Of a DNA stretch of 64,000 nt, positions 1-57,362 are shown piece after piece. Position numbers and translations under genes: made by a program. The notes below the pieces were generated by a model. It ran no database searches and had not been told where the DNA came from. It saw only the letters and a list, made by a program, of their open reading frames with translations. Each line of letters begins with the position of its first letter. The stretch's first letter is position 1. This DNA comes from Heloderma charlesbogerti (taxonomy: Eukaryota; Chordata; Lepidosauria; Squamata; Helodermatidae): positions 616,596 through 680,595 of the forward strand of contig JANEZZ010000806.1 of NCBI GenBank assembly GCA_026122225.1, read 5' to 3'.

Positions 1-1250
1 GGGAGAAATCCTCCGCACCCCCCGCACCCCGCACACCCCCCCGGGACGGGACTTAACTTCTCCGAATGTCCCTCCCGGCGGCGGGTCCAGCCGGCGGTTC
101 GGCGGGTGTTCGTGCGGGGCGGGAGCGGCAGCTGGTCTTTTGACTGGCTGCCGCCGCCATTCCAATAAAAGAAAAAAAAACGCCCCCGTGATAGGCTATG
201 TGACGATTAACGTAGCCTATCATGGCTAGATTTGCAAAGTCAGCCATGATAGGCTACGTAAATCGTCACGTAGCCTATCACGGGTGACTTTAAAAAAAAA
301 AAAAAAAGCGCGTACGGATAATGGCGGCCCCCATAGGGAGCCACCATTCCCGTTCCTTATTTGGTTGCTGTAGTCTACGTAAAGATTTACGTAGACTATG
401 GCGACCAAATAAGGAACGCGAATGGCGGCTCCCTATGGGGGGCGCCATTAGCATACGCGCTTTTTTTTTTTTTAAAGTCACCCATGATAGGCTACGTGAC
501 AATTAACGTAGCCTATCACGGCTGACTTTGCAGATCTAGCCATGATAGGCTACGTTAATCGTCACGTAGCCTATCACGGGGGCGGTTTTTTTTTTTAAAA
601 AAACAACTTTCGAGTTCGCGGCCAGGCGAGGCGGGAAGCCTCCTCCCCGGCCTGAATTTCGGCCGGGGCGAGGCGGGAAGCCTCCCCCCAGCCTGAATTT
701 GGGCCGGGGCGAGGCGGGAAGCCTCCCCCCCCGGCCTGAACTTCGCGGGGGGAGCAGCGAAGCGCCTCCCCCCCACCGCGAACAAGTGGTGAACAAAAAA
801 ACCGCGAACAAAAAAAACAACTATTTGTGTTGCCCTTATTTTCGCCGTAGTCTACGTAAACATTTACGCAGACTACAGCGACCAAATATGGAACGCGAAT
901 GGAGGCTCCCTATGGGGGCCACCATTTGCGTACGCGCTTTTTTTTTTTTAAAGTCACCCGTGATAGGCTACATGGTGATTTACATAGCCTATCACGGCTG
1001 ACTTTGCAGATCTAGCCGTGATAGGCTACGTTAATCGTCACGTAGCCTATCACGGGGGGGGGGTGTTGTTTTTTAACTGTTTAGTTCGCATCCGGGCGAG
1101 GCGAGGCGCCTCCTCCCCGGCCTGAATTTCGTCTGGGCGAGGCGGGAAGCCTCCCCCCCCGGCCTGAACTTTGCGGGGGGAGCAACGAAGCGCCTCCCCG
1201 CCACCGCGGGAAATCTTCGAGGACAGGTAAGTGACTTTCGTCCACCCCTA
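1..1250. mobile_element. TAGGGATG-family hAT-like foldback element, left end cut by window
   Basis: CpG-rich palindromic transposon. The right end reads CTTTCGTCCACCCCTA, with an outward splice-donor-like AGGTAAGT at 1225-1232. Inside are repeated small palindromes with arms TGATAGGCTACGT / ACGTAGCCTATCA (for example about 188-224, 248-282, 489-524, 547-577, 961-995 and 1016-1052). TAGTCTACGTAAA hairpins and ATGGCGGC blocks lie between them. Comparison with the copy at 38644 suggests that about 75 bp of the left end lie outside the window. It abuts the terminus of another hAT family (1251-1344). No coding capacity. The hAT assignment rests on the 8-bp target duplications of sister copies. Confidence 0.85.
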
Positions 1251-1344
1251 ATTCTGCTCCACTTCGTATCACATGGAGGCAACTCTAAAGCAGCTCACTT
1301 CAACTTGTTATTCGGGCTTCGGACAGAGGTGGTGCACAGCCCTA
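1251..1344 (-). mobile_element. Terminal fragment of the TAGGGCTGTGCA hAT family
   Basis: Read on the minus strand, this stretch matches the left terminus of the element at 8085-9468: TAGGGCTGTGCACCACCTCA, followed by the same downstream order of motifs. It ends at CACAGCCCTA (1335-1344). The TAGGGATG element at 1-1250 is probably inserted in it, leaving only this end in view. Confidence 0.65.
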
Positions 1345-2255
1345 GACAAAACCCTCCTGGAGACTGGGGTGGTGGTGAATATTCAGCTGGGAAAATGTTC
1401 AGGTGTGAGCACACAGTATACTGCTTACACTTACAAGGTGGTCTCATAGGTGCCTTCCCCCCTTTTCCTTTTATGTGCAGGGGAAGGAATAGGATCTAGG
1501 GATAGGTGGTCATAGTAGTAGTAGGTGTGAGAATGTCGTTGAGCTTTTCTTCAAGCATGCACAGTGAATAATACTAAACAAACAAACACCAGTCTTTGTA
1601 TGGGTTCATCTTGAATGCTTACAAAGCCTCAATCCCTTTCAGGCTGAGCATCTGAATCCCTACTTGACACCAATTTAGCATCATCAGTACCATCAACAAA
1701 TAAATTTGCAATTAGTTGTGTGAATGGCTATGATTTATTTTTCCCACTGCTACCACCACCAACAGGGAAACTGCTCCTTCACTGGTCAGTCCCACGTATG
1801 GGGTTTCTTATTTATATCAAATGATTATATTTCAGGGCCTAAGGAACTCTCTGCCACTATAATAGACTTCCACTAGCTGACCCTTTCCCGCTGCCACCAA
1901 TTTTGTTAGAATAATTTAAAACCTCCTAGTATAAGAGGCATAGGTGTGAGATGGGCACCAACACTAGAGACAAGTGGAACTATTAAACAAGTAAACTACT
2001 AAAGGGATATTTTGTATTTAAGGGATTGCTATAATTTACTCTGCTGTTTTCAAAAGATGGCTTAGTGACAATTCTTTAGGACTCATGAGACACTATTGCT
2101 GCTGCAAGTCTCTAAGGGCTTCTTTTACCTCAGGCCAACTTCCTTAAACCTCCACCCTAGCCAAATACCTTTACAACCAAGTCCAGCTTCTGCATATAGT
2201 CTTCCTCTGACACCCAAAGCTCCCCTCATTACTCACTGCTGGACAGTTAATCTGA
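1345..2255. other. Non-coding stretch, nothing recognised
   Basis: AT-rich sequence without a convincing long reading frame, RNA gene or repeat that I can name. Confidence 0.5.
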
Positions 2256-2263
2256 GTTTTTAC

Positions 2264-2706
2264 TAGGAATGTCAGAGGAATCTGTCTGGGGGGGTGAAGT
2301 CCACTGAGCTTTTGGTGGCTCATCCCCCCAGACACCGAGTCGCTTGTTCTCAAGCTGGCCTGAGTCATGCCAGTTGGCGGAATTCCACTACAAGCACCTC
2401 CATGTGCAAACCCCTCACACTCTCCTTGCCAATGCCATGAGCGGAGTCCCTGCTACTGCCACCGTGCGCAAACCGGCAAGGAGAGTGTGAGAGATTTGTG
2501 CATGGTGGCTGTGGCAATAGTCCCCGCTACCGTGCACAAACTGTGCAGTTTATGGCCATAATTTTGCGTTAAGAAGCACTCCTGCAAAAGGGGAAGTTCC
2601 CAGATTTCATGAACAGCCCCCCTGGCTCATCTCACAAAGGCAAGACAAGCCGGGAGAGTTTGTCAGGCCCTTAAAGGACCGGATTTATCAGCAATGGACA
2701 TCCCTA
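2264..2706. mobile_element. Old TAGGGATG-like hAT element (443 bp)
   Basis: Begins TAGGAATGTCAGAGGAATC, close to the TAGGGATGTCAGAGAATTC end of the young copies, and ends ACATCCCTA. It is flanked by GTTTTTAC (2256-2263) and GTTTTTAT (2707-2714), an 8-bp target duplication with one mismatch. Inside, a 31-nt inverted repeat near 2400-2430 and 2476-2506 (CCATGTGCAAAC... / ...GATTTGTGCATGG) forms a hairpin. More diverged than the CpG-rich copies elsewhere, so probably an older relative. Confidence 0.7.
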
Positions 2707-2742
2707 GTTTTTATTGCCTGATTGTATAACTATCCTCAGGAA

Positions 2743-4675: not shown

Positions 4676-4677
4676 CA

Positions 4678-8084: not shown

Positions 8085-9468
8085 TAGGGCTGTGCACCAC
8101 CTCAGTCCAAAGCCTGAATAATGAGTCGAAGTGGGTTGCTTCGGAGATGCCTCCACATGATACGAGGCAGAGCAGAAGGCACCCCAAAGCGAAGCAGCTT
8201 GTATATGAAGCGCCTCGTCTGACTCAGTCATTTGTTCTGAGCAACCCAGACAGCCTGGCACAAAAAGTATCAACTTGAGAAAGTTCAGCAAGTGGTTGAG
8301 GAGTAAGGGAGGAGGGAAGGGGGGAGGAGGAGGAGCGGGGGAGGGAGCTTTGGCGAATGGAAACTCTAGTTGTCAAATCAGGGCTGAACGTAACCCAGCA
8401 ATCTCCAATCAGTGACAGTGATAAAGGAGGGGGAAGACTGAATAACTGGAGAAAAACAGCTGCATTTCAGAGACAGCGATAATTCTGGTGGTGTTACTTA
8501 GGGTTGTAAGAACCCACCCACATCTGGGTTCTCTGGCTAGCAGTCCTTGGGGGTCTTTCCACCAGCAATTTACCCCTTCAATTGACAAGGCAGTGTGATC
8601 TTCGGGCTCTGATCTTCCTTTGTTTGGTTTATTGCCTTAGGAAGAAACTTCAACCCTTTGTTATAGAGATCCTGTGGGTTAAAATGGGAGCTGGTTTCCA
8701 TCTTTGTTTTTACTGCTCTCTTTACCAGCCAGCACAAGCATATGTATATCTACTCAGAAGTAACTCCCATTGTGATCAATGAGGCTTGCTCCTGAAATGC
8801 AAGCGCATCTGGATTTTCAGGGGAAAGGATAAAGGGGGGAAGCCTCTCTTATTGGTTGAGCAGCCCCTGCCAGTCAGATGACATTCAGTCCAACCCCCCC
8901 CCGCCCCCGAAGTATGTTCTGTGAAGCAAATTTTACTGGTGCGGAGAACCTGCTCGTGGAGCCCTGCATTGACCAAAGCGCAGCAAAGCTGATTCCTTTA
9001 AAAAAATCTGGTACTCCTCCATTTGCTTCTCCTTCTCTTGTTGTGGAAGCACAGCCATATACAGCCAAGCAGGAAGGAGGAGGCAGTGGTGCGGGGCTAA
9101 AAAGTATAGGGCTTTGCTTTCAGCGTTTTTGTGGAAAAAATCAAATTTCAGCTGCACCACCTAGCACAAATGATACTGGGCAAAACTGTCTGAAATTTGA
9201 CAGGTGGGATCCCCTCCATGTTGATAGAGAGGCCCCCAGGTTTCATATATTTATCATGAAACCTGTAAAAGTTATGGCCATTTGTGTTTTCCCATGCAAA
9301 TTAATAGGAAAATGCCGAAACTGAGTGATCTGAATATCTGAATCTCACTTTGGATCCAGAACCGAGTTGAAGTGGAGGGGGTCTGAATCGGTCTGAGTTG
9401 AAGCGAGTCTGATTTGGAGGGTCCGAACCAGCATCTGAAGTGAAGCGGGCAGTCTGTGCACAGCCTTA
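8085..9468. mobile_element. TAGGGCTGTGCA-family hAT element (1384 bp)
   Basis: Ends are TAGGGCTGTGCAC and TCTGTGCACAGCCTTA. Flanks are CCATTTTG (8077-8084) and CCATTTTA (9469-9476), an 8-bp duplication with one mismatch that fits the hAT superfamily. Internal sequence has GA/G-rich tracts near 8300-8345. No transposase frame is seen, so it is probably non-autonomous. The left end also occurs at 1251-1344. Confidence 0.75.
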
Positions 9469-9508
9469 CCATTTTATGGAAACTGGCAGCTCATCCTTTT
9501 ACGTAAAG

Positions 9509-9976
9509 CAGGGGTCCCCAACCCCCGGGCCATGGACCGGTACTGGTCCGTGGCCTGTTAGGAACCAGGCTGCAGTAGGGATGTGTGAAACCCCCTTACC
9601 TTGGGTCATGGGGGGGTGATCCATCCCTCCCCCCCCCCAGAATCCTCGCTGGCCCTGGCTGGCTCCACTCTGCAGCGAGTTCGTGGAGCTGTCAGCTGGC
9701 TTCGGCTGCTGGCGGACTTCCGGCTGCTGGAACGCAAATGGTGTCCGCATAGTGGACGCCATTTGCATCCCTGTTCTTCAAGTAATAGGCTATGTAAATC
9801 TTTATATAGCCTATTACTGCAAAGAACAGGGACGCAAATGGCATTCGCTACGCAGACGCCATTTGCATCCCAGCGGCCGGAAGTCCGCCAGCGAAACCAT
9901 CCCCCCTCCCCCGGTCCGTGGAAAAACTGTCTTCCATGAGACTGGTCCCTGGTGCCAAAAAGGTTGGGGACTGCTG
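9509..9976. mobile_element. hAT element with CAGGGGTCCCCAAC ends, split by another element
   Basis: Starts CAGGGGTCCCCAACCCCCGG and ends GGTTGGGGACTGCTG, a near-perfect inverted terminal repeat of a type widespread among amniote hAT elements. Flanks ACGTAAAG (9501-9508) and ATGTAAAG (9977-9984) are an 8-bp duplication with one mismatch. The middle (9576 to about 9890) is a TAGGGATG-family insertion. Confidence 0.8.
9576..9890. mobile_element. TAGGGATG-family copy, right end eroded
   Basis: Begins TAGGGATGTGTGAAACC with an outward donor-like motif (AGGTAAGG on the minus strand, 9594-9601). It contains the family palindrome TAATAGGCTATGTAAA / TATATAGCCTATTA near 9783-9815, and GCAAATGG...CCATTTGC blocks on both sides. 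The usual CATCCCTA right end is missing, so the right boundary is approximate. Confidence 0.7.
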
Positions 9977-10497
9977 ATGTAAAGGACCCTTTTGCGCAAA
10001 AGGCGGCAGTAAATAGGCCCATTTATGCGAAATTACAGTCATAAATGGTCTAAAGAGAACATTTATGCCTGTAATTGCACATAAATGGGCCTGTTGACAG
10101 CTGCCGTTGGCGCAAGAGTGTCCTTTATGTAAAGGGATGAGCCGCCATTTCCTGCAACATGGTGGCTCTGCGGAGCAGGGGGACAGTGTGCACCACTCGC
10201 TGGGCACCCACGGACCACCCGGTGGCTGCCACATGTTATTTATTTTATTACTTATTAAATTTCTCAATCGCCCATCTGGCCGGTCACCCGGCCACTTTGG
10301 GCAATGTACAATAATACAAACAGTTTAAAAACAATAAAATTACACATTAAAACATCATCTTCTAAAATTTCCCTAACCCACCCCAAATGCCTGCCTGAAC
10401 AACCAAGTTTTTAACACGTGGCTTACAGGGTCAGCTGGCCGGCAGTGGTTTGGTGAGTGGCGCGTGGCATGGACAGGGATGAGTTTGGCCATCCCTA

Positions 10498-12984: not shown

Positions 12985-13208
12985 AGCCTGTTAGAAAAAA
13001 AAGGAGACTCCATAACCGTTGGTGTCTCAAGTTACGTAAGAGCCCGAGTGGCGGGAAAATGTAGGCGGAGCAAAAAGGGAATCATACTGACGCGCTCATG
13101 ACTAACAGCTTGGTAAGCTGATAGTGACTGTTTATTGGCTATTGACTTAGTGAGCCGATGTACTAACTGTTTCATTGGTTACTGGTAAGAACAATAGAAG
13201 CGATATGA

Positions 13209-13214
13209 TATAAA
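13209..13214 (+). promoter_or_regulatory. TATA box of the 5' LTR
   Basis: TATAAA lies about 66 bp before the AATAAA signal, as expected for the U3/R layout of a retroviral LTR. The same motif is at 21688-21693 in the 3' LTR. Confidence 0.7.
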
Positions 13215-13274
13215 GGGCTTTTGCACACGTGTCTCGGGGTCCAGACTGCTCTGCACCCGTTTTGCAAAACGTTC

Positions 13275-13280
13275 AATAAA
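13275..13280 (+). terminator. Poly(A) signal AATAAA of the LTR
   Basis: Canonical AATAAA in the R-like part of the 5' LTR. The functional counterpart in the 3' LTR is at 21754-21759. Confidence 0.75.
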
Positions 13281-13357
13281 ATAGTGTTGGATCCACTGCT
13301 GCCTGCCTGGCATCCTTCTCTTCTAAACTGAAAGCAAGGACTTTTTATCTAACAATT

Positions 13358-13375
13358 TGGTGCCGTGACTCGGAT
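13358..13375 (+). promoter_or_regulatory. Primer binding site, tRNA-His
   Basis: TGGTGCCGTGACTCGGAT starts four bases after the 5' LTR. It is complementary to the 3' end of vertebrate tRNA-His, whose acceptor ends CGGCACCA. This is the site where reverse transcription would be primed. Confidence 0.9.
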
Positions 13376-13772
13376 CCTGCTTCGGGGCGCGTCCCCTTCG
13401 CGCTGAGCCGAGGGGCTGCGGAGGAGAAGTGGCCACAGGTGGTTGTTTTACACTGCCTTCTCCTCACGACGGTGGTGGCGGAGGCACCTGGGGTCCAACG
13501 CCAGAGGAAGAGGGAGACATGATCACTCCTTTTAGGCACCGGCAGTGGATCAATAAGCAGCTGGACGCAGCTGCGGGCGGGACAGAAGAGGCTTTTGGGG
13601 TAAGTGAAACAGCTTACATTAGGGGATAAACGCGGGACGGTGGTGTGTTTGTGATTGAGACACCTATGGGCGAAGCGAGTGGGGAGCCCCGATCTGCATT
13701 TCCTTACCCCGGAGACGGGCTAGGTCAGAGGAGGGCGAAGTGCGAGAATTGCTGATTGAAATTCCCACCGTC
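13376..13772 (+). other. ERV leader, probable packaging region
   Basis: GC-rich untranslated leader between the primer site and gag. A short frame at 13429-13629 ends before gag. GAGGTAAGT-like splice-donor candidates are not obvious; GGGGTAAGTG at about 13597 is the best one for a spliced env message. Confidence 0.5.
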
Positions 13773-15377
13773 ATGGGCGGGTCCCAATCTAAGTCTGCGA
13801 AGAAGTCCCATACGCCCTTGGAGTGTTGTTTGCGCAATTGGTCACGTTTTAAGCAGGATTATGGGACTAAGATGACAAAAGATCGTCTTGTCTTTTTTTG
13901 CACCCGGGAATGGCCAATATTAGAACCCAAATGGCCACCCGAGGGGTCTTTTGACCCAACCTTGGTATCTGATGTGCGAACAATAGTAGCACAGAGGGGA
14001 AGTTGGGACCAGTTCCCTTATATTGATTCGTGGGCAACTTGTGTGCCCCTTGGCGGCAGGCCCGCTCCGTGGGTTGTTAAATGCATGTCCCTTGCCCTTC
14101 CCATGGTGGTCAAAAGGAAACCACCAAAAGAAGGACCACCCAAGGTCGTGGCCACGGCACTGGAGGACCCACTGCTTCCTCCTCCCTATGGGACAGCCGT
14201 CGCAGGGCAACCACACCCATTGCAACCACCACCCTCTCCTGAGGGGCCTGCCCAGCGGTTAGATGCCCCCGAGAAGGACCCCTCTCACGAAATAGTACCA
14301 GAGGACCCCACCCCTCTAGTTGAACGCCGGGACACTCTCCAAGATCATCTATATTCCCTAGAGGAAAGATTGGAGGTCCTACATAGAGAAGCAAAAGGGG
14401 GACCTAACTACAACCTGCGAAAGGACCCCCAACCACCGGTGAAGTTCACCTTCCCCATCAAAGAAGTCCCCGACCCTACCGCCCAACATCCTCAAGGGAC
14501 GATGTTTGTTTATGTCCCATTCACAACATCTGATTTGTATAATTGGAAACAATTTAACCCCTCCTTTGAAGAGGATCCTGGGCCACTCCTGTCTCTGATG
14601 GAGAATGTGAGGCTTACTCACAACCCCACATGGGACGATAAACAAATGCTATTGAACACCTGTTTTCTCAGCCAAAAGCCAACCATCCTTGCCGGGGCAC
14701 GAGCCAAGTATAGGGAGGAAAATCCCCAGGCAACTGAGGAGGAGACGGCGGAGGTTGTGCCCACAGGGCGACCCAATTGGGGGGTGGCCACAGTGGCACA
14801 TAGACGCTTACATGCTGACTATTTTCGACTCATTTTAGCAGGCATGAAGCAAGCCGTGAGAAGGGCCCCCAATTTGCAAAAAGTCCTGACTCTAAAGCAA
14901 GACAAAAACGAACCTCCTGCCATGTTCCTCCAAAGGCTGAGGGAAGCCTTCGCTAAATATACTGACATTGACTTGAATGATCCAAATAATTTAAGGATCC
15001 TCATGACTCAGTTCATGGGAAATAGCTGCCAGGACATCAGAAAGAAGTTGCAAAAAGTTGAAGGAGGGTTGGCAGCTGACCTAGGAGTTTTAGTTGAAGT
15101 AGCTCAAAAGGTTTATGAGAGGCGAGAAAAAGAAGAAGGAAAAGAAAAAGACAAGAGGCAGGCCAAGCTCCTTGCTGCAGTTCTTAAACCTGACAAAGAG
15201 GGAACTAGAAAGGGGAGGAAAGGGGGAAGGAAAGGATCTCCCCTGGGGAAAGATCAATGTGCCTTTTGTAAGAAAATGGGGCACTGGAAGCGTGACTGTG
15301 AGGCTTTGAAGCAGAAAGATAGAGGGGAAAATACGGGAGGAGCAGAGAGAGTTCTGTATGAACAGGAAAGAGATTAG
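13773..15377 (+). CDS. gag: ERV gag polyprotein, open reading frame
   Basis: 534 codons from ATG 13773 to TAG 15375-15377. An upstream in-frame GTG at 13740 exists, but the 13773 start gives MGGSQSK, a typical N-myristoylation start for a matrix protein, so I prefer it. A PPPY late-domain motif lies at 14178-14189. A major-homology-like segment MFLQRLREAF lies near 14920. One zinc knuckle CAFCKKMGHWKRDC (CX2CX4HX4C, 15258-15299) follows a Lys/Glu/Arg-rich stretch near the end. Length and order (matrix, proline-rich, capsid, nucleocapsid) match gammaretroviral Gag. The stop is UAG and pol continues in the same frame, the layout in which gammaretroviruses make Gag-Pol by stop readthrough. No internal lesion was seen. 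Confidence 0.9.
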   Translation: MGGSQSKSAKKSHTPLECCLRNWSRFKQDYGTKMTKDRLVFFCTREWPILEPKWPPEGSFDPTLVSDVRTIVAQRGSWDQFPYIDSWATCVPLGGRPAPWVVKCMSLALPMVVKRKPPKEGPPKVVATALEDPLLPPPYGTAVAGQPHPLQPPPSPEGPAQRLDAPEKDPSHEIVPEDPTPLVERRDTLQDHLYSLEERLEVLHREAKGGPNYNLRKDPQPPVKFTFPIKEVPDPTAQHPQGTMFVYVPFTTSDLYNWKQFNPSFEEDPGPLLSLMENVRLTHNPTWDDKQMLLNTCFLSQKPTILAGARAKYREENPQATEEETAEVVPTGRPNWGVATVAHRRLHADYFRLILAGMKQAVRRAPNLQKVLTLKQDKNEPPAMFLQRLREAFAKYTDIDLNDPNNLRILMTQFMGNSCQDIRKKLQKVEGGLAADLGVLVEVAQKVYERREKEEGKEKDKRQAKLLAAVLKPDKEGTRKGRKGGRKGSPLGKDQCAFCKKMGHWKRDCEALKQKDRGENTGGAERVLYEQERD

Positions 15378-19101: not shown

Positions 19102-19102
19102 T

Positions 19103-21429: not shown

Positions 21430-21455
21430 ATGCTTTAAGACATGAATAAAGACTT

Positions 21456-21467
21456 AAAGGAGGGAAT
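21456..21467 (+). promoter_or_regulatory. Polypurine tract of the ERV
   Basis: AAAGGAGGGAAT immediately precedes the 3' LTR. This is the expected plus-strand primer site in reverse transcription. Confidence 0.85.
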
Positions 21468-21833: not shown

Positions 21834-21837
21834 AGCC

Positions 21838-41725: not shown

Positions 41726-41736
41726 ATGACACAATG

Positions 41737-42160
41737 TATGGCTGTGAGAGCTGGACTATAAGGAAGGCTGAGCGCCGAAGAATTGATGCTTTCGAACTGT
41801 GGTGCTGGAGAAGACTCTTACGAGTCCCCTGGACTGCAAGGAGGTCAAATCAGTCCATACTAAAGGTAATCAACCCTGAGTGCTCATTGGAAGGACAGAT
41901 ACTGAAGCTGAAGCTCAAATATTTTGGCCACCTAATGCGAAGAGAAAACTCCCTGGAAAAGACCCTGATGCTGGGAAAGACTGAAGGCAAAAGGAGAAGG
42001 GGACGGCAGAGGATGAGATGGCTAGATAGCATCACCGATGCAATGAATATGAACTTGAGCACGCTCCGGGAGAGAGCGCAGGACAGGAAGGCCTGGCGTG
42101 CTATGGTCCATGGAGTCACGAAGAGTCGGACATGACTGAACGACTGAACAACAACAACAA
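41737..42160 (+). mobile_element. 5'-truncated BovB LINE
   Basis: The last 424 bp of a BovB element. The open frame to 42135 (about 133 codons) equals the C-terminus of ORF2 (CESWTIRKAERRRIDAFELW ... RKAWRAMVHGVTKSRT). The tail GACTGAACAACAACAACAA is the BovB 3' end. Target duplication ATGACACAATG at 41726-41736 and 42161-42171. Truncation at the 5' end and a target duplication are the marks of target-primed reverse transcription. Confidence 0.95.
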
Positions 42161-44640: not shown

Positions 44641-45107
44641 AGCCAGTTGACATTCTCAGGCTGAGAAAAAGTGAGCCAAATAGTCCTCCCAGGGAAGAGA
44701 GTATCAGAGCCTTAGGTGCTACCACTGAGAAGACCCTGTCCCATGTTCCCAGCAAGTTAACCTCAGATGGATAAAGTGGATTGACCCTATCATTGTGGAA
44801 TGTTTCTATGCCACCTTCAACCAGTGTTGGGCAGTGGCCCAGAAACTCTCCATAAGAGAGTCTACAGCAAACGTGTCTCAAGTTATTCAAATGGCAGGAC
44901 CAATACCATGGGAGCCCTGATAGACAGAAAGACAATATACATATTTACATAAATAAATAATTCAGAAGCAGTAAATCAAAGCCTAATAATGTTATTTTCC
45001 TCTAATTAAGATCAGAATGGTTGAGGAATTTAAAATACTATGTTCATATCTAAGTAATGTATCTTATGTTTAATTGTCACTTCTGTTTGAACCTAAACAT
45101 TATAACT
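44641..45107. other. Non-coding stretch, possible old LINE sequence
   Basis: 44640-44935 (motifs such as GAGAAGACCCTGTCCCATGT) recalls a degraded LINE-type repeat. Nothing firmer can be said. Confidence 0.3.
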
Positions 45108-45111
45108 TTAA

Positions 45112-45328
45112 TTCTGAGGGCAGTACTCGATGGGGAGCAACTGCTAATGTAAATTAAACTGTGCTAGCATAAGCTACTCTAGTGCAATGCCAAGAGCGTT
45201 AGCCGATGAACTGAGTTTCCTGGGAAACTGATGCATTAGCTAATGCTCTTGGCATTGCACTAGCGTAGTTTACAATAGCGCAACATAATTTATGTTAGCG
45301 GTTGCACCCCACTGGATAGCGCCCTGAA
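45112..45328. mobile_element. Palindromic MITE with TTAA flanks (piggyBac-like)
   Basis: TTAA at 45108-45111 and 45329-45332. Termini TTCTGAGGGC and GCCCTGAA. Arms pair over most of the length, for example CTAGTGCAATGCCAAGAGC / GCTCTTGGCATTGCACTAG and CAACTGCTAA / TTAGCGGTTG. TTAA duplication is the mark of piggyBac transposition; the assignment is inferred from that only. Confidence 0.65.
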
Positions 45329-45332
45329 TTAA

Positions 45333-46986
45333 ATAGGGTGGAGTGAAAATAAACACACACACTTTTGAGGCCCCATATGCAGACTGCAATGGTGTGTGAG
45401 AATTTCTGCTGTTTTCAGGGGTAGGAGAAAATATGAAGTGGAGGGAGGCAACAATACTGATTGTGTCCCTGCTCCCTTGCTCCTCACTGCTGCTAGCCGC
45501 AGTGTTCAAATTCCCCAGAATGCCCAGGAATGATGCTACATCATGATGAAGTGTTGTTCTGAGGGACATTCTTAGAAAAATGGCATCCTCACTCCTCAGC
45601 TGGTGTATTAAAACAGCAGCCACCAGAAGTCATGCAGCAAGGGGAGGGCTGTGAGTTTAGCCCCCTGCCCGCAAAATGTGAGCCCTCTCTTTTGCTGCTG
45701 AGTCCCCATCCAAATGTGGGCAGGATTTTCACCCTATCAAAAGTATAGACAAGCACTAATAGCAACAGATAAATGTAATATGTCTGTAGTAAATGTAGCA
45801 AAACACATACTAATGCAGCAGTGCTTGGAAATATTGGGTGCAAGAATTTATATATTTATGCACAGAAGACCATTCAATCAGACTGTAGTTTGCGGTGGTA
45901 CAGCCTCATCTGTTATTTGTGAGAATTAGACCTTTGTCTCAGGAACTGGTGTGACGCAATCTAACAAACACTACCGGACTGGGGCCTGGTGGCTGAGAAA
46001 CAGTGTTCTACAATATAGAGAAAATGCAAGTTAATATGTAGTCCCTCGTTTAATTTATTACGTTTTTCCTTTTTAGGGTTCTAGTGATTTTAATGGAACT
46101 GCTCCTGGACAGTAGACAGTTCAGATTTCAGGCTCACAGATGTAATATAAATATAACACACTATGCATGCTGTTGTTGTTTTAATCATAAAAGCATAAAT
46201 GTCAATTCCTGGTGGTTGGGTGGGCCTGTAAATCCTCCCCCCGCCCCACATACACAATTCTGAAATCTGTTGAATAGGTTTGCATGATGTGAATGTTTCC
46301 CCCTCCCTTTCGGAGTTTTTTTTAACCATTGTGGTGTGTTTCACCTTTTGTTGTTCTCCTTCTTTTAAATAGTTGGTTTCACTGATCAGGTGTTTCAGGT
46401 AATAAAGCAGACTGTATTACCTCAAACACATGATCAGATGAGACTGCAATCCTTCCAGCCTATCTCAAGATGCAAAGGACTGCTCTGAAAAAAAAGCAAG
46501 CAAGCAAGCAAGTAGGGGAGTAGAAAAAAGAGTAACAGAAAAAAGCATCCGTCTTGTCAGGCCTCACAATGCAGTTCCCAAAACAAACAACAAAAACAAC
46601 CCCCTTTGAAAACAGAGTATGTGCCCTCACACTTTATTTAACTAGTGCATTTTTAAGTGTATGAAACAAAGAATGGAAACTTGGCCAACAAATGCATTTC
46701 ACCTCTAATAAAAAGAGACCATAGAAAAGGAAAAGAGAGGGGTGGGGAAACATTTTGTAAAATAATAATATTCAGGAACTCTAAAATAACCATAAAATTG
46801 TAGTACTAAATTATTTCCAGTCCATTCTTTGAATCTGTCAGGATCATTTGGAGAAAGGACCACAAAGTATGTTACCTTGAAAAGGATACAGTAAGGAAGG
46901 TGTCAAAGACCAACAAGCAGGGATATCCAGACCCAGAAGCAAAATGTTTAGGTCTTTTCTTTCGTCATTAATTTGTTTCCGTAATT
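45333..46986. other. Non-coding stretch, nothing recognised
   Basis: No gene or named repeat; a short AAGC tandem run lies at 46494-46511. Confidence 0.45.
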
Positions 46987-46994
46987 GCTTTATA

Positions 46995-48215: not shown

Positions 48216-49674
48216 CATATTTGTTGTTGTTCAGTCGTTAAGTCGTGTCCGACTCTTCATGACCCCATGGACCACAGCATGCCAGGCCTTCCTGTCCTCC
48301 GCTCTCTCCTGGAGTGTGCTCAAGTTCATATTCATTGCATCGGTGATGCTATCTAGTCATCTCATCCTCTGCCGTCCCCTTCTCCTTTTGCCTTCAATCT
48401 TTCCCAGCATCAGGGTCTTTTCCAGTGACTTTTCTCTTCGCATTAGCTGGCCAAAATATTTGAGCTTCAGCTTCAGTATCTGTCCTTCTAATGAGCAGTC
48501 AGGGTTGATTTCCTTTAGGATTGACTGATTTGACCTCCTTGCAGTCCAGGGGACTTGTAAGTCTTCTCCAGCACCACAGTTCAAACGCATCAATTCTTCA
48601 GCGCTCAGCCTTCCTTATAGTCCAGCACAGCCATATGTTACTACTGGAAAAACCATAGCTTTGATTATACGGACCTTTGTCGGCAAGATGATGTCTCTGC
48701 TTCTTACTATGCTGTCTATGTTTGCCATAGCTTTCCTCCCAAGGAGCAAGCATCTTTTAATTTCATGGCTACAGTCACCATCTGCGCTGATCTTGGAGCC
48801 CAAGAAAATAAAATCTGTCACTGCTTCCACTTCTTCCCCTTCCATATGCCAGGAAGTGATGGGGCCAGATGCCATGATCTTCGTTTTTTTAATGTTGAGT
48901 TTCAAACCAGCTTTTGCACTCTCCACTTTCACCCTCAACAAGAGGCTCTTTAGATCCTCTTCGCTTTCTGCCATTAGGGTGGTATTGTCTGCGTATCTGA
49001 GGTTGTTGATAATTCTCCCGGCAATCTTAATTCCAACCTGTGATTCATCCAACCCGGCATTTCTCATGATGTACTCTGCATATAAGTTAAATAAGCAGGG
49101 CGACAATATACAGCCTTGTCATACTCCTTTCCCAATTTTGAACCAATCGGTTGTTCCATGTTCGATTCTTACTGTTGCTTCTTGACCCTCGTACAGGCTT
49201 CTCAGGAGACAGGTAAGGTGGTCTAGTACTCCCATCTCTTTAAGAATTTGCCACAGTTTGTTGTGACCCACACAATCAAAGGCTTTAGCATAGTCAATGA
49301 AGCAGAAATAGACGTTTTTCTGGAATTCTCTTGCTTTCTCCATGATCCAGCGAATGTTGGTGATTTGATCTCTAGTTCCTCTGCCTCTTTGAAACCCCGC
49401 TTGTACTTCCGGTAGTTCTCGGTTCACATGCTGCTGAATCCTAGCTTGTAGGATTTTGAGCATAACCTTGCTGGCATGTGAAATGAGCGCAATTGTACGG
49501 TAGTTTGAACACTGTTTGGCATTCCCCTTCTTTGGAACTGGAATGTAAACTGACCTTTTCCAGTCTTGTGGCCACTGTTGAGCATTCCAAATTTGTTAGC
49601 ATATTGAGTGCAGCACTTTAACAGCATCATCTTTTAGGATTTTAAATAGCTCAGCTGGGATACTGTCTTCTCCA

Positions 49675-50434
49675 TAGGGGTGCATGAAAGTCACTTACCT
49701 GGTCCCGCAGCTTGCTTCGCGGTGGGGGGGAGGCGCTTCGGTTCTCCCCCCGAAGTTCAGGCCGGGGGGGAGGCGCCCCACCTCACCCGGCCGAAATTCA
49801 GGCTGGGAAGAAGCGCCCCATCTCCCCGGCCACGAAATACAAAAGTAAAAAAAAACACAAAAAAACCACACACCCGTGATAGGCTACGTAACGAATAATG
49901 TAGCCTATCACGGCTAGATTGCCAAAGTCAGCTGTGATAGGCTACATTAATCCTTACATAGCCTATCACGGGTGACTCTGGGGGGAAAAAAAGCGTGTAC
50001 GCAAATGGCGGCACCCATGGGCGCCACCATTTGCATTCCTTATTTGGTCCCGGTAGTCTACGTAAAGATTTACGTAGACTACGGCAAAAATAAGGGCAAC
50101 GCTATTTGCGTGGTTTTTTTTACTTTATTTTGTAAAAATAAAAATTTTGTAAAAATAAAATATTTTGTAAAAACAACAAATTTATTTTGTGTATTTTTTT
50201 TACTTTATTTTGTAATGGTGGTGGTAGCCGGTCGGAAGACCGGCCACCGTCCCCGCCCCGACAAAACGCCGCCGAACTCCCGCCAGGACCCGCCGCTGAG
50301 AGGGACATTCGAGGGAGGTAAGTCCCATCCCGGGGGGGGGGCAGGGGGAGGGGGGGAAGAATTTCACCAACAATTTCGGGGGGCCGAATGCCTTGGCATT
50401 CCGAGATTCATGGGGAAATTCTCCGCCATCCCTA
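49675..50434. mobile_element. TAGGGATG-family element in BovB (760 bp)
   Basis: Perfect 8-bp duplication CTTCTCCA (49667-49674 and 50435-50442), confirmed against the uninterrupted BovB copy near 61310. Outward donors: minus AGGTAAGT (49693-49700) and plus AGGTAAGT (50316-50323). Unlike its sisters the centre contains AT-rich TTTGTAAAAATAAAA-type tandem repeats (50110-50215). Confidence 0.95.
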
Positions 50435-50485
50435 CTTCTCCACTAGCTTTGCTGTTAGTAATGCTTCCTAAGGCCCACTTGACTT

Positions 50486-51227
50486 TAGGGATGTACGAAA
50501 TCCCTACCTGGCTCTGTGCCGGTCAATCCACGGTGGAGGGGAGGCACTCTGTCCCTCCCCCCGTTATCCTCCTCAGCCAGCTCCGTTCTGCGGCAGCTCC
50601 ATAGACCTGTCGCCGGGGCTGGCCACAGCTGGAGTTCCAGCTACTGCTGGGCTGCTGAGGCCGCAAATGGCGGCCGTTGTAGCGGCCGCCATTTGCGTCC
50701 TTGTAGTAAGCCGTGATAGGCTACGGAAGTATTTATGTAGCCTATCACGGCAAAAGGCAGCCATGCAAATGGTGGCAGCTATGCCATTTGCATGGCTGCC
50801 TTTTGCCGTGATAGGCTACATAAATACTTCTGTAGCCTATCACGGCTTACTGCAAAGGACGCAAATGGCATAGTGGCCGCCATTTGCGCCCTGCTCTTTG
50901 TCGTGATAGGCTATGTAGGTATTTACGTAACCTATCACAGCTTACTGCAAGGACGCAAATGGCGGCGTCTACGACGGCCACCATTTGCAGCCGCAGCAGC
51001 CCGGCAGCGGCCGGGAGACCAGTCGGAGCCGCTGCTGCCCCATCCACCACCGCCGCATCCGCTGCCGCCGCATCTGCCACAGGATCCACCACCAGGTACG
51101 TTCCGTCCCGGGGGGATTCCGCAGGGTGGTGGGATGGGGGAGGCCATTCCGCCATGGATTCCAGTGGCCCGGATTCTAAAGAATCCAGGCTCACTGGCAT
51201 CCATGGAGGAATTCTCTGACATCCCTA
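50486..51227. mobile_element. TAGGGATG-family element in BovB (742 bp)
   Basis: Octamers CTTGACTT (50478-50485) and CTAGACTT (51228-51235), 7 of 8 matching; the empty site is readable in the BovB copy near 61270. Donor-like motifs: minus AGGTAGGG (50502-50509) and plus AGGTACGT (51094-51101). Four hairpins with TGATAGGCTAC arms. Confidence 0.95.
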
Positions 51228-51681
51228 CTAGACTTAACTCTCTAGGATGTCTGGCTCAATTTCGGTGACCGCACTATCATGGCTATCAGGGACATTAAGA
51301 TCTTTCCTGTATAGTTCTTCTGTGTATTCTTTCCACCTCTTCTTAATCTCATCTGCATCTGTTAGGTCTCTGCCTTCTTTGTCCTTTATCATGCCCGTCT
51401 TTGCACAAAACGTTCCCTTGATATCTCTGATTTTCTTGAAAAGTTCTCTAGTCTTTCCCATTCTATTGTTTTCTTCTATTTCTTTGCATTGTTCATTTAA
51501 GAAGGCCTTGTTGTCTCTCCTTGCTATTCTCTGGAAATCTGCATTCCGTTGGATATATCTTCCCCTTTCTCCCTTGCTTTTCACTTCCCTTCTTTCCTCA
51601 GCTACTTGTGAAGCCTCATCAGACAGCCACTTTGCTTTCTTGCATTTCTTTTTCTTTGGGATGGATTGAGTTGCTGCCTAA

Positions 51682-51757
51682 TAGGGGTGTACGAAACCCC
51701 GCATACCTGACGGAATTCTCCGTGGTGGATCCGTGGCGGAATTCTCTAACATCCCTA
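51682..51757. mobile_element. Minimal TAGGGATG-family copy (76 bp)
   Basis: Only the two ends remain: TAGGGGTGTACGAAACCCC at left and GAATTCTCTAACATCCCTA at right, with one AGGTATGC-type donor remnant. Flanks CTGCCTAA and CTCCTGAA agree at 5 of 8 positions. It sits in the BovB ORF at a position readable from 60811-60850. Confidence 0.85.
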
Positions 51758-52507
51758 CTCCTGAACAATGTTATGGACCTCCGTCCATAGTTCCTCAGGC
51801 ACTCTGTCTATCAGGTCTAATCTATTCCTCACCTCCACTGTATATTCATAAGGGATATGATTTAGGTCATACATGAATGGTTTAGTGGTTTTCTCTACAT
51901 TCTTCAATTTAAGCCAAAATTTTGCAACAAGAAGCTCATGATCTGAGCCACAGTCAGCTCCAGGTCTTGTTTTTACTGACTGTATGGAGCTTCTCCATCT
52001 TTGGCTGCAAAGGACATAATCAATCTGATTTCGATATTAACCATCTGGTGGTGTCCATGTGTAGAGTCACCTCTTGTGCTGTTGGAAAAGCATGTTTGCT
52101 ATGATCAGCATATTCTCTTGGCAAAACTCTATTAGCCTTTGTCCTGCTTCATTTTGTACACCAAGGCCATGCTTGCCTATTATCCTGGTTATTTCTTGAC
52201 TTCCTACTTTAGCATTCCAATCCCCTATGATGAAGAGGACATCTTTTTTTGGCGTTAGTTCTAGAAGGTGTTGTAGGTCTTCATAGAACCGATCAACCTC
52301 AGCTTCTTTGGCCTCAGTGGTTGGGACATAGACTTGAATTACTGTGATGTTGAATGGTTTGCCTTGGATTCGTACTGAGATCATTCTGTCGTTTTTGAGA
52401 TTGTACCCCAGTACTGCTTTTCCCACACTTTTATTGACTATGACTGCTACTCCATTTCTTCTAAGGGATTCTTGCCCACAGTAGTAGATATAATGGTCAC
52501 CTGAACT

Positions 52508-53351
52508 TAGGGATGTACGAAACACCTACATGGCTCTGCGCTGGGCAATCCGTGGTGGGGGGGAGGCACTCCGTCCCTCCCCCTGGAATCCTTAACAGGG
52601 GGAAGGCGATCCAGTCCTCCCCCCCAGAATCCTGCCCGGCTGGCTCCACTCTGTGGCCAAGCTGCAGAGCCACCAGCTGGCTCCAGCTGCCCGCAGCCAG
52701 ACATCCGGCCACTGGGCAGCCCTGCAGGGACGCAAATGGCGGCTGTCGTAGCTGCTACCATTTGCGTCCCTGTATTGAGCTGTGATAGGCTATGTAAATA
52801 TTTGCATAGACTATCACGGCAGGGGGAAAAACCCCAGCGTATGCAAATGGCGGTAGCCGCCACCATTTGTGTACGCTGGGTTTTTTCCCTCCTGCCATGA
52901 AAGGCTATGTAAATACTTACGTAGCCTATCATGGCTGGGGGAAAAAAACCCAGCATATGGAAATGGCAGTAGCTGTCGCCAATTGCATACACTGGCGTTT
53001 TTTCCACCCTGCCGTGATAAGCTACGTAAATACTTACGTAGCCTATCACGGCCTCCTCAGGGACGCAAAAGGCATCCCTGCATTAGCCGTGACAGGCTAC
53101 GTAAGTATTTACGTAGCCTAACATGGCTATGAAGACGAGATGGCCGCAGGATGGCCGCCATTCGCAAAGCAGTGCGGAGGGGAGCCGGTAAGTGCTCCAT
53201 TTCGCGCGCCTTTCGTGGGGAGGGGCAGCGGAGACTTCGTCCCGCGTGCCTTTCATGGGGTGGGGGCTTCGTTCTGCAATGGATTTCAGAGGCTGAATGC
53301 ACTGGCATTTGGCCTCACCGAGATCCGTCGCGGAATTCTCTGACATCCCTA
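52508..53351. mobile_element. TAGGGATG-family element in BovB (844 bp)
   Basis: Octamers CCTGAACT (52500-52507) and CCTGAATG (53352-53359), 6 of 8 matching, in the BovB endonuclease region (empty site near 60066). Plus-strand donor CGGTAAGT near 53186-53193; the left donor is decayed. Contains a series of ATGCAAATGG / CCATTTGC pairs with GGCTATGTAAATA hairpins between them. Confidence 0.95.
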
Positions 53352-53873
53352 CCTGAATGAGATTTGCCCATGCTTGTCCATTTTCGTTCGCTGATTCCCA
53401 AGTTGTCGATGTTTAATCTTGCCATCTCATGTTTGACCACCTCCAGCTTACCTTGATTCATTGATCTGACATTCCAGGTTCCTAAACAATATTATTCTTT
53501 ACAGCATCAGACTTTCTTTTCACCACCAGACACATCCACAGCTGAGTGTCCTTTCGGCTTTGGCCCAGCCACTTCACTCTTTCTGGCGCTACTTGGAAAT
53601 TCCCTCTGCTCTGCCCCAGTAGTATATTGGACACCTTCCGACCTGAGGGGCTCATCTTCCGGCATCATATCTTTTAGCCTTGTGATACGTTCCATGGGGT
53701 TTTCTTGGCAAGAATCCTGGAGTGGGTTGCCATTTCCTTCTCCAGTGGACCACACTTTGTCAGAACTCTCCGCCATGACCTGTCTGTCTTGGGTGCCCCT
53801 GCATGGCATAGCTTATGGCTTCACTGAGTTACGCAAGCCCCTTCACCATAACAAGGCAGTGATCCATGAAGGG

Positions 53874-54190
53874 GAATATCATACTGCCCTTATACAATTC
53901 TATGGTGCAACCACACTTGGAATACTGCGTACAGTTCTGGTCACCAGACCTAAAAAAAGATATTGTAGAGCTGGAAAAAGTGCAGAAAAGGGCAACTAAA
54001 ATGATCAAGGGGCTGGAGCATCTCCCTTATGAAAGAAGGTTACAACAGCTGGGATTGTTTAACTTGGAAAACAGGAGGATAAGGGGAGTCATGATAGAGG
54101 TGTACAAAACTATGCATAGTGTGGAGAATGTGCATAAGGAGACATTTTCTCCCTCTCTCAAAATACTAGAACCCAGGGTCATCCCATGAT
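53874..54190 (+). pseudogene. CR1/L2-like ORF2 C-terminus, downstream of BovB insertion
   Basis: Continues the reading frame broken at 48221: [38 protein letters not shown] and [16 protein letters not shown]. Ends near 54189, followed by the 3' UTR. Confidence 0.8.
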
Positions 54191-55000: not shown

Positions 55001-55103
55001 GCAGGTTCCTGGTCAACGGTTGGTTGGCCACTGTGTGAACAGAATACTCCACTAGATGGACCCGCGGCCTGATCCAGCATGGCTCTTCTCATGTTCTTAT
55101 GAT

Positions 55104-55690
55104 AAGCCACCATGGGTTATTTTACCCACAGGGCTCTGAGACATACACTGGCCACATCTTGAATATGCTAGCCATAGTGGGGGCATGCTACAGCTTGTGT
55201 TGTGTGAACCTGGGTGTCATAGGTTATTTGTTCTAGGGTTATCTGAAGGTTACTTAACCCTCAAATAACCCACAATGCATGGGTTTGCACAACACGACAA
55301 GCTACAGCACCCCATCATAGCTTGCATATTCAAAATGATGGCCAGCATGCATCTCGGGGACCAAAGGGGTGAATTAACCCATGTGGCTTACTGTGACATG
55401 TGAACTGGGTCTCTATGTAATGTTGAGAATGGCTGTTTCAAGTGTAAATTCATGGCAATGAGGAAGACTGGAAGATCAGAAATGGGTGTAAAATATTCAG
55501 TTCAGGGGACTAAATGGGTAACAAAGACCATTTTTGAAGACAGAAGAATTTTTTGTCTTATGTAAGGGATGTGAAATTGGTGGGCCATGGTCTGCGCTTG
55601 ACCCCTTCCCAGCCGCAGCAGTGAGACCTAACTGCTGTGTACTGAGTGTTGGGGTGTGTGTGTGAGAAGGGTCACAGCTGGGGTGGAAAG
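55104..55690. other. Non-coding stretch, nothing recognised
   Basis: Contains a small inverted repeat (GGTTATTTG... / ...CAAATAACC, about 55220-55270). No gene seen. Confidence 0.4.
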
Positions 55691-55695
55691 GGTAT

Positions 55696-56073
55696 TAGGG
55701 TGGACATGTGTCTTCTTTTGCAGAGGGCAATCCTCTATTTGAGGGGCTGCCAGAGGACTGTCCTCTATTTTGAAGGTGTCCTCCATTTGAAGGGCTGTTT
55801 AGGCCAAGTCTGGTATAAAGATAAAGAACCATCAGAAGGAAGAGCTGGGCCTTGATGTTGCCCACCCACAGCACCTGAACAGAAGACAGCACACAGGTCA
55901 CACCCTTCCACAGTATCGTGAGATGTACTGTATTTCTATTTAAATTATTATAATAATTTCTAAATTTGCATCTATACATATAGACTAGCATATGCAATTT
56001 TTATGCATATCTGTGTCCTCTTTTTTTGGTGATGTATTTCTGCTTTTTTGGCAATTCGTAAGAGGCCACCCTT
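55696..56073. mobile_element. Candidate DNA transposon with TAGGGTGG ends, second copy
   Basis: Left TAGGGTGGACATG, right GGCCACCCTT. Shares motifs with 31530-31895 in inverted orientation: GTCCTCTATTTGAAGG-type blocks, a TAAAGATAAAGAACCAT segment and a TAAATTATTATAATAATTTC segment. Confidence 0.6.
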
Positions 56074-56338
56074 CCCCTCCCCCCTAATCCCAATCTCCTG
56101 TGTGGCAATTAGTCTTGCGTTGAAAGCTTTTAATGGGCAGGATAAGGCCCTGGGTCCTAGGCACCATCCCGCCCAAAGATGCAACCAATGTATATTACAG
56201 TCTAAAATAATAACACACAGTAATTAAATGCTCACCATCACCACAAAAATCAAGGCATTTTTAAAAACATGCCCCATACCCCTTCCCCCAATTTCATTGG
56301 ACATTAGGGTTCATAAGTAGGCTGTTATTACTCTGCAG

Positions 56339-57362
56339 TAGGGATGTACGAAAATCACTTACCTTTCGGGGATTATGCTAATGGTTGGGGGGAGGCGTTC
56401 CGTCCCTCCCCCCGGAATCCGCACCGGGGGGGAGGCGCTCTGTTCCTCCCCCCCCAGAATCCTGGCTGGCCGGCTCCGCTCCGCAGGGATTCTGCGGAGC
56501 CGCCGTCCGGCTCTGCCAGTGGTCGGACATCCGGCCATAGCCACCACCGTTTGCGTCCCTGCAGTCAGCCGTGATAGGCTACATAAATGTTTACGTAGCC
56601 TATCACGGCTGATTTAAAGGGGAAAAAAACACACGTACGCAAATGGCGGCGCCCATGGGCGCCGCCATTTGTGTTCCTTATTTTGGCATGTCTTAGTCTA
56701 CATAAACATTTACATAGACTAAGACGGCGAAAATAAGGGGAACGCAAATAGCATAGATGCTACGCTACTTGCGTTCCCCTTATTTTCACCGTCTTAGTCT
56801 ACGTAAACGTTTACGTAGACTAAGACGGCGAAAATAAGGGGAACGCAAGTAGCGTAGCATCTACACTATTTGCGTTCCCCTTATTTTCGCCGTCTTAGTC
56901 TATGTAAATGTTTACGTAGACTAAGACGTGCCAAAATAAGGAACGCAAATGGCGGCGCCCATGGGCGCCGCCATTTGCGTACGTGTGTTTTTTTTCCCCT
57001 TTAAATCAGCCATGATAGGCTACGTAAAGATTTATGTAGCCTATCACGGTGTTTTTTAAAAATCTAGCCGTGATAGGCTACGCAAATCTTTACGTAGCCT
57101 ATCACTTTTTTTTTTTTAACTGGAAATGGCGGTGGTGGCAGCCGGTCGGAAGACCGGCCGCTGCCGCACCACCGCCGGAGCCGCCGCTGGAGCTGCCGCT
57201 GGAGCCTCCGCTGGAGCCGCCACCACCAGGAAGATCCGCCCAAGGTAAGTCCCGTCCCGGGGGGGTGGGGGGTGGCAGACCATTCCGCCACCGATTTTGG
57301 GGTGCCGAATGCGTTGGCATTCGGCCTCCCCGAGATCCATGGCAGAATTCTCTGACATCCTA
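56339..57362. mobile_element. TAGGGATG-family element (about 1020 bp)
   Basis: Left TAGGGATGTACGAAAATC, right GAATTCTCTGACATCCTA (one C lost). Flanking octamers CTCTGCAG and AGTTTTCC do not match. Outward donors: minus AGGTAAGT (56357-56364) and plus AGGTAAGT (57243-57250). The centre is a series of TTAGTCTACGTAAACGTTTACGTAGACTAA-type hairpins alternating with AAAATAAGGGGAACGCAA. Confidence 0.85.

Follow-up and report, generated by a model that had tools for sequence, protein, structure and literature searches.

Copies in the window and their target sites

The window, a 64,000-nucleotide stretch of the Heloderma charlesbogerti genome, holds about 14 to 15 members of one transposon family, which agrees with the at least 14 copies ending in TAGGG(A/G)TG...CA(T/C)CCCTA that a first-pass annotation had counted. 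Strands are given as + where end 1 lies on the left and end 2 on the right. End 2 is TAGGGRTGNAYGAAAGTCACTTACCT, and end 1 has two variants, 1a (TAGGGATGGCGGAGAATTTC) and 1b (TAGGGATGTCAGAGAATTCC). The two subfamilies proposed earlier therefore stand as variants of one end only, since the other end is common to both. Among end pairs from 264 kb of sampled sequence, end 1 was joined to TAGGGRTGNAYGAAAGTCACTTACCT in 41 that had duplications of 6/8 or better, and the sole like-end pair with 8/8 flanks spanned two abutting copies.

Seven copies are bounded by exact 8-bp target duplications, as the annotation had stated, and all seven have the end pair TAGGGRTG...CAYCCCTA. Type 1a is represented by a non-autonomous foldback copy in a provirus at 20099-21020 (−; duplication GCCAAATG), by 34817-35755 (+; CATCCAGC), by 38644-39618 (+; AGTCTACG), and by 49675-50434 in a LINE (−; CTTCTCCA). 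Type 1b is represented by 33831-34295 (+; GCAGGGAC), 35800-37366 (−; GTGCTGAG), and 36347-37156 (−; GTATTTAC). Three of these seven are nested in other members: 36347-37156 sits in the palindrome of 35800-37366, 38644-39618 sits in a half-site (described below) of the type 1a copy at 38194-40124 (+; duplication 7/8), and 33831-34295 interrupts a member at 33524-34688 (+) that has no readable duplication. For the last of these, the uninterrupted version of the insertion site was seen by eye in the host's opposite palindrome arm.

Two more type 1b copies lie in the same LINE as 49675-50434, at 50486-51227 (−; duplication 7/8) and 52508-53351 (−; 6/8). An uninterrupted sister LINE at 59550-62771 (+) contains each of these three targets once and serves as the empty-site reference. 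The LINE also carries a 76-bp mini copy with both ends at 51682-51757 (−), which has no half-site and whose duplication is unreadable because its flanks differ from the sister LINE by a small deletion. Further members without a readable duplication are a type 1b copy at 56339-57362 (−), with a right end one C short (CATCCTA) and a palindromic core of about 480 bp that is 96% self-complementary; a member cut by the window edge at 1-1250 (+), with an extra internal half-copy at about 355-786; and the end-2 half of a member at 9576-9889 (−), beyond which the sequence is unrelated. In the edge-cut member, 1-419 and 821-1250 match 20943-20099 inverted, and the right end CACCCCTA lies at 1243-1250.

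We scanned the window for end pairs 80-2600 bp apart with at most one mismatch per 8-mer end, and obtained 187 pairs. Flanks scored 8/8 in seven, where about 0.004 would be expected by chance at 26% per base, 7/8 in three and 6/8 in one. The imperfect cases, which bear out the earlier report of copies at 6-7/8, were 38194-40124, 50486-51227, 52508-53351, and 2264-2706. The last is a weak candidate for membership because it has no self-match in the window; it also has no local palindrome and a CpG observed/expected ratio of 0.38. A chance or satellite origin of the copies was ruled out by the empty sites, the duplications, and the nested copies. An Rfam search of the window gave no match.

The family had been described as CpG-rich and foldback in structure, and both descriptions held. 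The CpG ratio was 0.70-1.18 in 11 of 13 measured stretches versus 0.33 elsewhere in the window, the exceptions being 9576-10497 (0.59) and 2264-2706. With 15-nt arms, loops of 0-10, and at most two mismatches allowed, 85 of the 95 local palindromes of the window fell within the 13 listed stretches, which take in 2264-2706 (no palindromes) and the partly unrelated 9576-10497 (three).

Beyond the window, 40 sampled elements had duplications of 8/8 in 32 cases, 7/8 in seven, and 6/8 in one, pairs scoring below 6/8 being left out as elements. Their duplication consensus was GTnnnnAC. Among the 39 duplications of at least 7/8, T occupied position 2 in 19, A occupied position 7 in 18, both did so in seven, and a central TA occurred in three. 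The targets are of the nTnnnnAn type, by which the Ac group is recognized, rather than of the nnnTAnnn type, which is the Buster pattern. Extrapolation from a biased sample would put the family at about 125,000 copies, or roughly 4.6% of the genome.

A long element with the same ends

The annotation had assigned the family to the hAT superfamily, non-autonomous and driven by a transposase encoded elsewhere, and a full-length relative with matching termini was indeed found in the same 2.3-Gb genome. This element is 9,465 bp long, has the same two ends and perfect 8-bp duplications, and contains an open 879-codon frame; the length is a full reading of one copy, and other long copies were read by their ends. 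A long copy on contig C838 has ends 1b and 2 with AAAAAAAG on both sides, and is nested in a short copy that is itself flanked by GCAGCTAG on both sides. Two further long copies with both ends read had duplications of 8/8 and 7/8. The genome has 871 candidate hAT domains; 150 of these matches were scored, eight of them with the 879-codon frame, and our count of long copies is limited to that scored set. All eight end at the same right end, which is identical in the seven further copies apart from a one-base change in one. Another candidate partner, L045, was rejected because its end-like match at 335 had six mismatches and was poor on inspection.

The frame matches zf-BED (4.4e-5) and Dimer_Tnp_hAT (1e-16) and has the architecture of a hAT transposase: a BED finger, an RNase H-like core, and a C-terminal hAT dimerization region. 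In the predicted structure, 344 of 879 residues reached a pLDDT of at least 90, and all 12 fold-search matches of this model at E ≤ 0.001 were Hermes chains. Candidates for the catalytic D, D, E triad of hAT are D335, D407, and E805, in the motifs SDTWTS, TDNASN, and SERLFS, respectively; in a comparison of 15 proteins, D407 alone of the three counted as nearly invariant. No methionine precedes the BED finger, and the start therefore needs a putative upstream exon. P, Merlin, and Zisupton are other superfamilies with 8-bp duplications, and were not considered further, given that the partner's frame is of the hAT kind.

Recent activity, also claimed earlier, is borne out in two places. The provirus that hosts the copy at 20099-21020 has LTRs 98.9% identical over 367 bp. 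Another short copy interrupts the transposase frame of a long copy; in the 807 codons that remain, this frame and that of a sister differ at 14 nt (dN/dS 0.55, from 14 changes only, too few to inform).

We infer that the transposase of the long element cuts and pastes the short copies. Some other hAT of the genome could mobilize them instead, with the 879-codon element merely having the same ends. The large pool of hAT domains, of which only 150 were scored, leaves room for such a source, and end 1 of the C838 copy is nearer to type 1b (two mismatches) than to type 1a (three). We nonetheless consider this very unlikely, as long and short copies have more than their tips in common: positions 439-975 of the window copy at 38644 correspond to 8926-9465 of the long copy at 90.6% identity, so that the right 540 bp are common to both, and the half-site array lies in both as well.

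Half-site pairs and the foldback core

The short copies of the window, made up of palindromes nested in one another, are mostly 0.5-1.2 kb long, and the seven window copies compared match only the last 550 bp of the long element. At the left ends, long and short copies have only about 20 bp in common (by eye; no BLAST match). The copy at 38644 additionally matches the long element in inverted orientation (its positions 248-575, 86%). The right part of the long element contains TAGNCTACGT, a 10-bp half-site arranged in inverted pairs 8 bp apart, and the fully mapped copy has five exact half-sites, all at 9018-9221 and at most 450 bp from the right end. On sequence comparison, the type 1a core is an inverted duplication of this right array. 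A spanning foldback was present in 39 of 40 sampled elements, and its inverted repeat starts 147-461 bp inside the element (39 elements).

Exact inverted TAGNCTACGT pairs, or dyads, number 233,182 genome-wide, against one for the reversed control, and all 70 exact half-sites of the window fall in members. Viral contigs searched for one dyad pattern gave no exact match. At columns outside CpG sites and runs, half-sites diverge by 1.2% (56 columns) and the remainder by 9.1% (116 columns), a value for half-sites that was as low in none of 10,000 permutations and none of 251 shifts.

The BED fingers of the transposase probably bind these inverted pairs, by analogy with known hAT systems. A different function is conceivable, in which the palindromes act as structural elements (cruciforms or hairpin RNA) or as sites for host factors, and the constraint reflects folding or host recruitment. 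The concentration of window palindromes in the listed stretches and the near-universal spanning foldback are compatible with that. Folding, however, would account poorly for conservation that covers the half-site letters beyond mere complementarity, or for a gap held at 8 in 124 of the 126 exact pairs (gaps of 0-40 considered), with loop letters that vary. The five half-sites near the right end of the long element, moreover, resemble subterminal repeats. We regard a structural or host-factor role as somewhat unlikely.

Half-sites may not be essential, because the 76-bp window copy lacks them, as does a 96-bp copy with an 8/8 duplication (L024:8845-8940). These two small copies might alternatively be later deletions.

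Judged from their sequences, the two arms of a copy evolve partly in concert, being more alike than separate evolution predicts. Over 194 non-CpG columns, arm identity was 0.933 within an element versus 0.896/0.891 between elements, and none of 2,000 random pairings gave a within-element value as high. A single origin of the core with arms separate ever since, in which central inversions and recombination between copies produce the look of concert, would fit several observations: in 42 cases, the nearest arm came from the same side 29 times and was the element's own partner seven times, young subclades keep left and right arms apart, and the central loop of 28 type 1a elements, classed by pattern, read TATTT in 15, AAATA in four, and otherwise in nine. 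That history is distinctly doubtful, since partners within an element are more alike than same-side arms of different elements, monophyly of left arms was rejected (p-AU 0.0002), and five elements have their left and right arms as sisters (SH-aLRT 83-93, ultrafast bootstrap 80-94, none reaching the tool's 95/80 mark and with a bootstrap that had not settled). Partial concert could arise from occasional homogenization of arms by recombination or by foldback copying inside the palindrome.

Same-change counts in the palindrome arms (118 versus 29 in shuffles) hint weakly at base-by-base compensation in small palindromes. Such compensation did not hold up as proof that hairpins are selected: most of the excess comes from positions at which two palindrome classes differ, and counts at CpG positions 12 and 13 were 12 versus 5.2 and 3 versus 2.9.

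Relation to known systems and implications

The Ac/Ds system has 8-bp duplications and TAGGGATG-type termini, and the Heloderma family resembles it in both. Classic foldback elements have terminal inverted repeats. Long inverted repeats in non-autonomous copies, as in the Heloderma family, also occur in Galileo, Tetris, FB, and palindromic hAT MITEs, Galileo being of the P superfamily rather than of hAT. In contrast to FB and Galileo, the ends here are asymmetric, ends 1 and 2 differing beyond about 8 bp, and only the core folds back.

PMC3260210, in which the string TAGGGATGAAA occurs once, describes Ac as autonomous and accompanied by short derivatives of varied make-up, which have common ends and subterminal transposase-binding repeats, an organization like that proposed here. 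The Ac repeats are AAACGG hexamers, unlike the 10-bp half-sites in fixed inverted pairs and foldback cores of the Heloderma family, and maize Ds-type classes comprise hundreds of elements each, far below the copy number in Heloderma (PMC3260210). Hermes is similar in the fold of the predicted transposase and in its nTnnnnAn targets; its BED domains cooperatively bind a quasi-palindromic pair of subterminal repeats, and its two ends have these repeats in different arrangements (PMC10368747, in the sections available). Its repeats, however, are short AAGT motifs, and those sections describe no foldback derivative family (PMC10368747).

The best-scoring proteins against the 879-codon frame were SCAN/KRAB-BED-hAT proteins of the lizards Sceloporus, Paroedura, Eublepharis, and Sphaerodactylus (36-42% identical). 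They have the BED and hAT dimerization domains in common with the frame; they differ in being predicted proteins of 1206-1430 aa, with SCAN in three of four, KRAB in two of four, and only putative mobility. Named matches include ZBED1-, ZBED4-, and ZBED6-like proteins and one AC transposase, and ZBED genes except ZBED5 belong to the Ac family (PMC3606216, available part). Our literature search, whose coverage left out most subscription journals, found no description of the Heloderma family, and four of its motif strings had no occurrence in the 5.39 million papers searched.

Taken together, the family is very probably a recently active Ac-group hAT system, with short copies in which sites that probably bind the transposase have been amplified. 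The foldbacks may have arisen when gaps left by excision were repaired by hairpin or template-switch copying, and the doubled array may have aided short copies in competing for transposase. A fuller model, which we put forward tentatively and rate as somewhat less than an even chance, is that short copies are transposase-binding arrays: BED would bind TAGNCTACGT pairs, the foldback would have doubled the array, conversion between arms would preserve it, and more than 230,000 dyads would titrate the transposase. If so, the dyads, at one per about 10 kb, would offer near-identical sites throughout the genome to any BED protein, and their users would perhaps include related host SCAN/KRAB-BED-hAT genes.

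A young hAT system would account for an estimated 4.6% of this 2.3-Gb animal genome. The eight 879-codon open frames among the 150 scored matches are candidate autonomous elements, and the system would offer an animal DNA transposon that may still move and can be tested directly. The conserved dyads and the partial concert of the arms bear on how foldbacks form and on why some short copies outcompete others.

Insertions in the window

Each of the 8-bp duplications that the first-pass annotation listed as perfect, seven in all, is present and flanks a TAGGGRTG...CAYCCCTA pair; three further copies have duplications matching at 7, 7 and 6 of 8 positions. Flanks of 8/8 occurred in 7 of the 187 end pairs examined in the window, where about 0.004 would be expected by chance; the pair at 2264-2706, with 7/8 flanks, is doubtful. 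One LINE is broken by the copies at 49675-50434, 50486-51227, 51682-51757 and 52508-53351, and an intact sister LINE at 59550-62771 has a single target at the sites of the 49675, 50486 and 52508 copies; for the mini copy at 51682-51757, this comparison is blurred by a small deletion. Copies also nest within one another (36347 within 35800, 38644 within 38194 and 33831 within 33524). The copy at 20099-21020 is a young insertion, since it lies inside a provirus whose LTR pair is 98.9% identical over 367 bp.

The window holds other mobile sequences. The provirus (12989-21834) is gammaretrovirus-like, with Gag_p30, Gag_MA and an integrase with an MLV-type C-terminal domain. The LINE, which we take to be BovB/RTE-like, is represented at 41733-42160, 48221-53874 and 59550-62771 by copies or pieces that are 93-97% alike, one copy having a 940-codon open frame (endonuclease and reverse transcriptase). 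A different palindromic element (33197-33523, 327 bp, 87% self-complementary) is adjoined by short inverted pieces at 33141-33194 and 34694-34747, which presumably resemble parts of a 5S-rRNA-headed SINE. Further self-complementary stretches at 25117-25336, 62967-63397, 55103-55390 and 45107-45333 (68-84% over 220-448 aligned columns) are perhaps other palindromic transposons.

Asymmetric ends and a palindromic core

We surveyed ends in 264 kb, comprising the window and 20 stretches of 10 kb, all from contig C1 and each picked for an exact 1a end, so the sample is not random. Its end-like sequences form 127 pairs: 83 join end 1 to end 2, and 44 join like ends. Duplications of at least 6/8 flank 41 of the 83. 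Among the like-end pairs, 1 of 44 has an 8/8 duplication, and it spans two abutting copies (stretch L017, 2186-5020) whose three junctions all carry GTCCTGCC, which would fit insertion of the second copy exactly at the duplication of the first. Stretch L021 (2987-5020, flanks GTAAAAAT and GTAAAAAA) may hold a similar tandem arrangement; tandem hAT MITE insertions have been reported in Atlantic cod (excerpt of PMC12368964). Because duplications go with end 1-end 2 pairing, the end pair of the family is asymmetric, with 1a and 1b as variants of end 1.

After removal of one pair spanning two copies, 40 elements were kept from the 41; this sample excludes the window copies 33524, 50486, 51682, 52508 and 56339. 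Their duplications match at 8/8 in 32, 7/8 in 7 and 6/8 in 1, with the consensus GTnnnnAC. End 1 is of type 1a in 28/40 and 1b in 12/40; the two subfamilies proposed earlier are thus variants of end 1 only.

A spanning palindrome is present in 39 of the 40 elements. The unit of its array is the half-site TAGNCTACGT opposite its own reverse complement with 8 bp between, forming a dyad. This spacing holds in 124/126 exact half-site pairs (gap 0-40) and 235/238 relaxed matches (loop 4-15). Every one of the 70 exact half-sites in the window lies within a family member, and exact pairs number 233,182 genome-wide (reversed control, 1). Across 42 arms, the halves of the palindrome, divergence at non-CpG, non-run columns is 1.2% in half-sites and 9.1% elsewhere. 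If uniform across columns, post-insertion decay would be at most about 1.2%, and most of the variation would then be older diversity among formerly active copies. The 9 mismatches in 320 target-duplication positions (pairs below 6/8 left out) agree with this.

We built a tree, whose bootstrap had not settled, from the left and right arms of 21 type-1a elements of 850-1000 bp. Left and right arms intermingle in it, with 13 changes, a count as low in 146 of 500 label shuffles, and a tree grouping all left arms was rejected (p-AU 0.0002). Arms also resemble their own partner more than the same side of other elements, whether or not CpG columns are removed. Against this, left and right arms separate in the youngest subclades, and the own partner is the nearest arm in only 7/42 cases. 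Weighed together, these sequence patterns argue for occasional, not constant, homogenisation of the arms. The central 5-bp loop of the 28 type-1a elements occurs in both orientations (TATTT 15, AAATA 4, other 9), which fits recombination between arms.

A transposase-bearing partner

A genome search with the hAT dimerisation profile gave 871 candidates. Among the 150 that were scored, the open frame reaches at least 870 codons in 17 and is exactly 879 codons long in 8. Two loci with long frames, one of 879 and one of 904 codons, align at 98.3%, and their alignment stops exactly at the family's end 2. On contig C838, the long element measures 9,465 bp, with a 1b-type end on one side and end 2 on the other; it is flanked on each side by AAAAAAAG and sits within a short copy itself bounded on each side by GCAGCTAG. 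In windows at the predicted ends, end 2 was located in all seven other 879-codon copies (one with a one-base change) and the left end in two, with duplications of 8/8 and 7/8; the left-end windows of the other five missed it. The C838 frame encodes BED and hAT dimerisation domains, and at E<=0.001 its predicted structure has fold matches to Hermes alone (12 chains). The suggested check for a full-length relative with matching termini yielded an element with a hAT transposase frame; its shared ends, 8-bp duplications and domains agree with the proposal of a transposase encoded elsewhere that would drive the short copies.

Within its last 550 bp, the long element has small palindromes and GC-rich repeats of 41 bp arranged as an array, which the short copy 38644-39618 matches at 90.6% identity directly and a second time, inverted, at 86%. 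In the 5' part of the long element, a tandem repeat of about 100 bp (positions 750-1172, L050 joined with L052) seems to vary in length between copies. Ahead of the BED finger, the C838 frame lacks a methionine. A possible first exon is an open stretch of 235 codons lying about 1 kb upstream, which has basic RGRP-type motifs but matches nothing in Pfam.

Scoring of the 7990 candidates sharing most words with the protein gave 58 homologues, none above 43% identity, the best-scoring from lizards. Four related lizard BED/hAT proteins (P0003-P0006) carry a fused SCAN domain (3/4) and KRAB box (2/4) and are candidate domesticated transposases.

Abundance, mobilisation and novelty

Exact 1a ends number 20,866 genome-wide and exact end 2 sequences 46,116. 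We estimated 124,000 copies from the dyad count (bootstrap 91,000-188,000) and 128,000 from the end-2 count (82,000-231,000), rough figures calibrated on 25 sampled non-anchor elements from family-chosen stretches of the window and one contig. With a mean length of 0.85 kb, the copies would make up about 4.6% of the 2.30-Gb genome (some 106 Mb).

The anatomy of the copies all but establishes that a hAT transposase moves them by cut-and-paste. The common ends and array suggest that the long-element transposase mobilises the short copies, and its BED finger may bind the dyads, given their conservation, their fixed spacing and the precedent of Hermes for BED binding of paired repeats (excerpt of PMC10368747). 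An absolute need for dyads is disfavoured, since two mini copies, one 76 bp and one 96 bp long, lack them and maize Ds1 elements are mobile without AAACGG repeats (excerpt of PMC3260210).

Four dyad strings had no occurrence in a search across 5.39 million published papers, and no close relative of the transposase appeared among the scored proteins. Judged by literature strings and protein comparison, this is, as far as these tools reach, a new hAT family. The kind of element is known; what sets this one apart is the foldback core built of dyads, with arms partly in concert.
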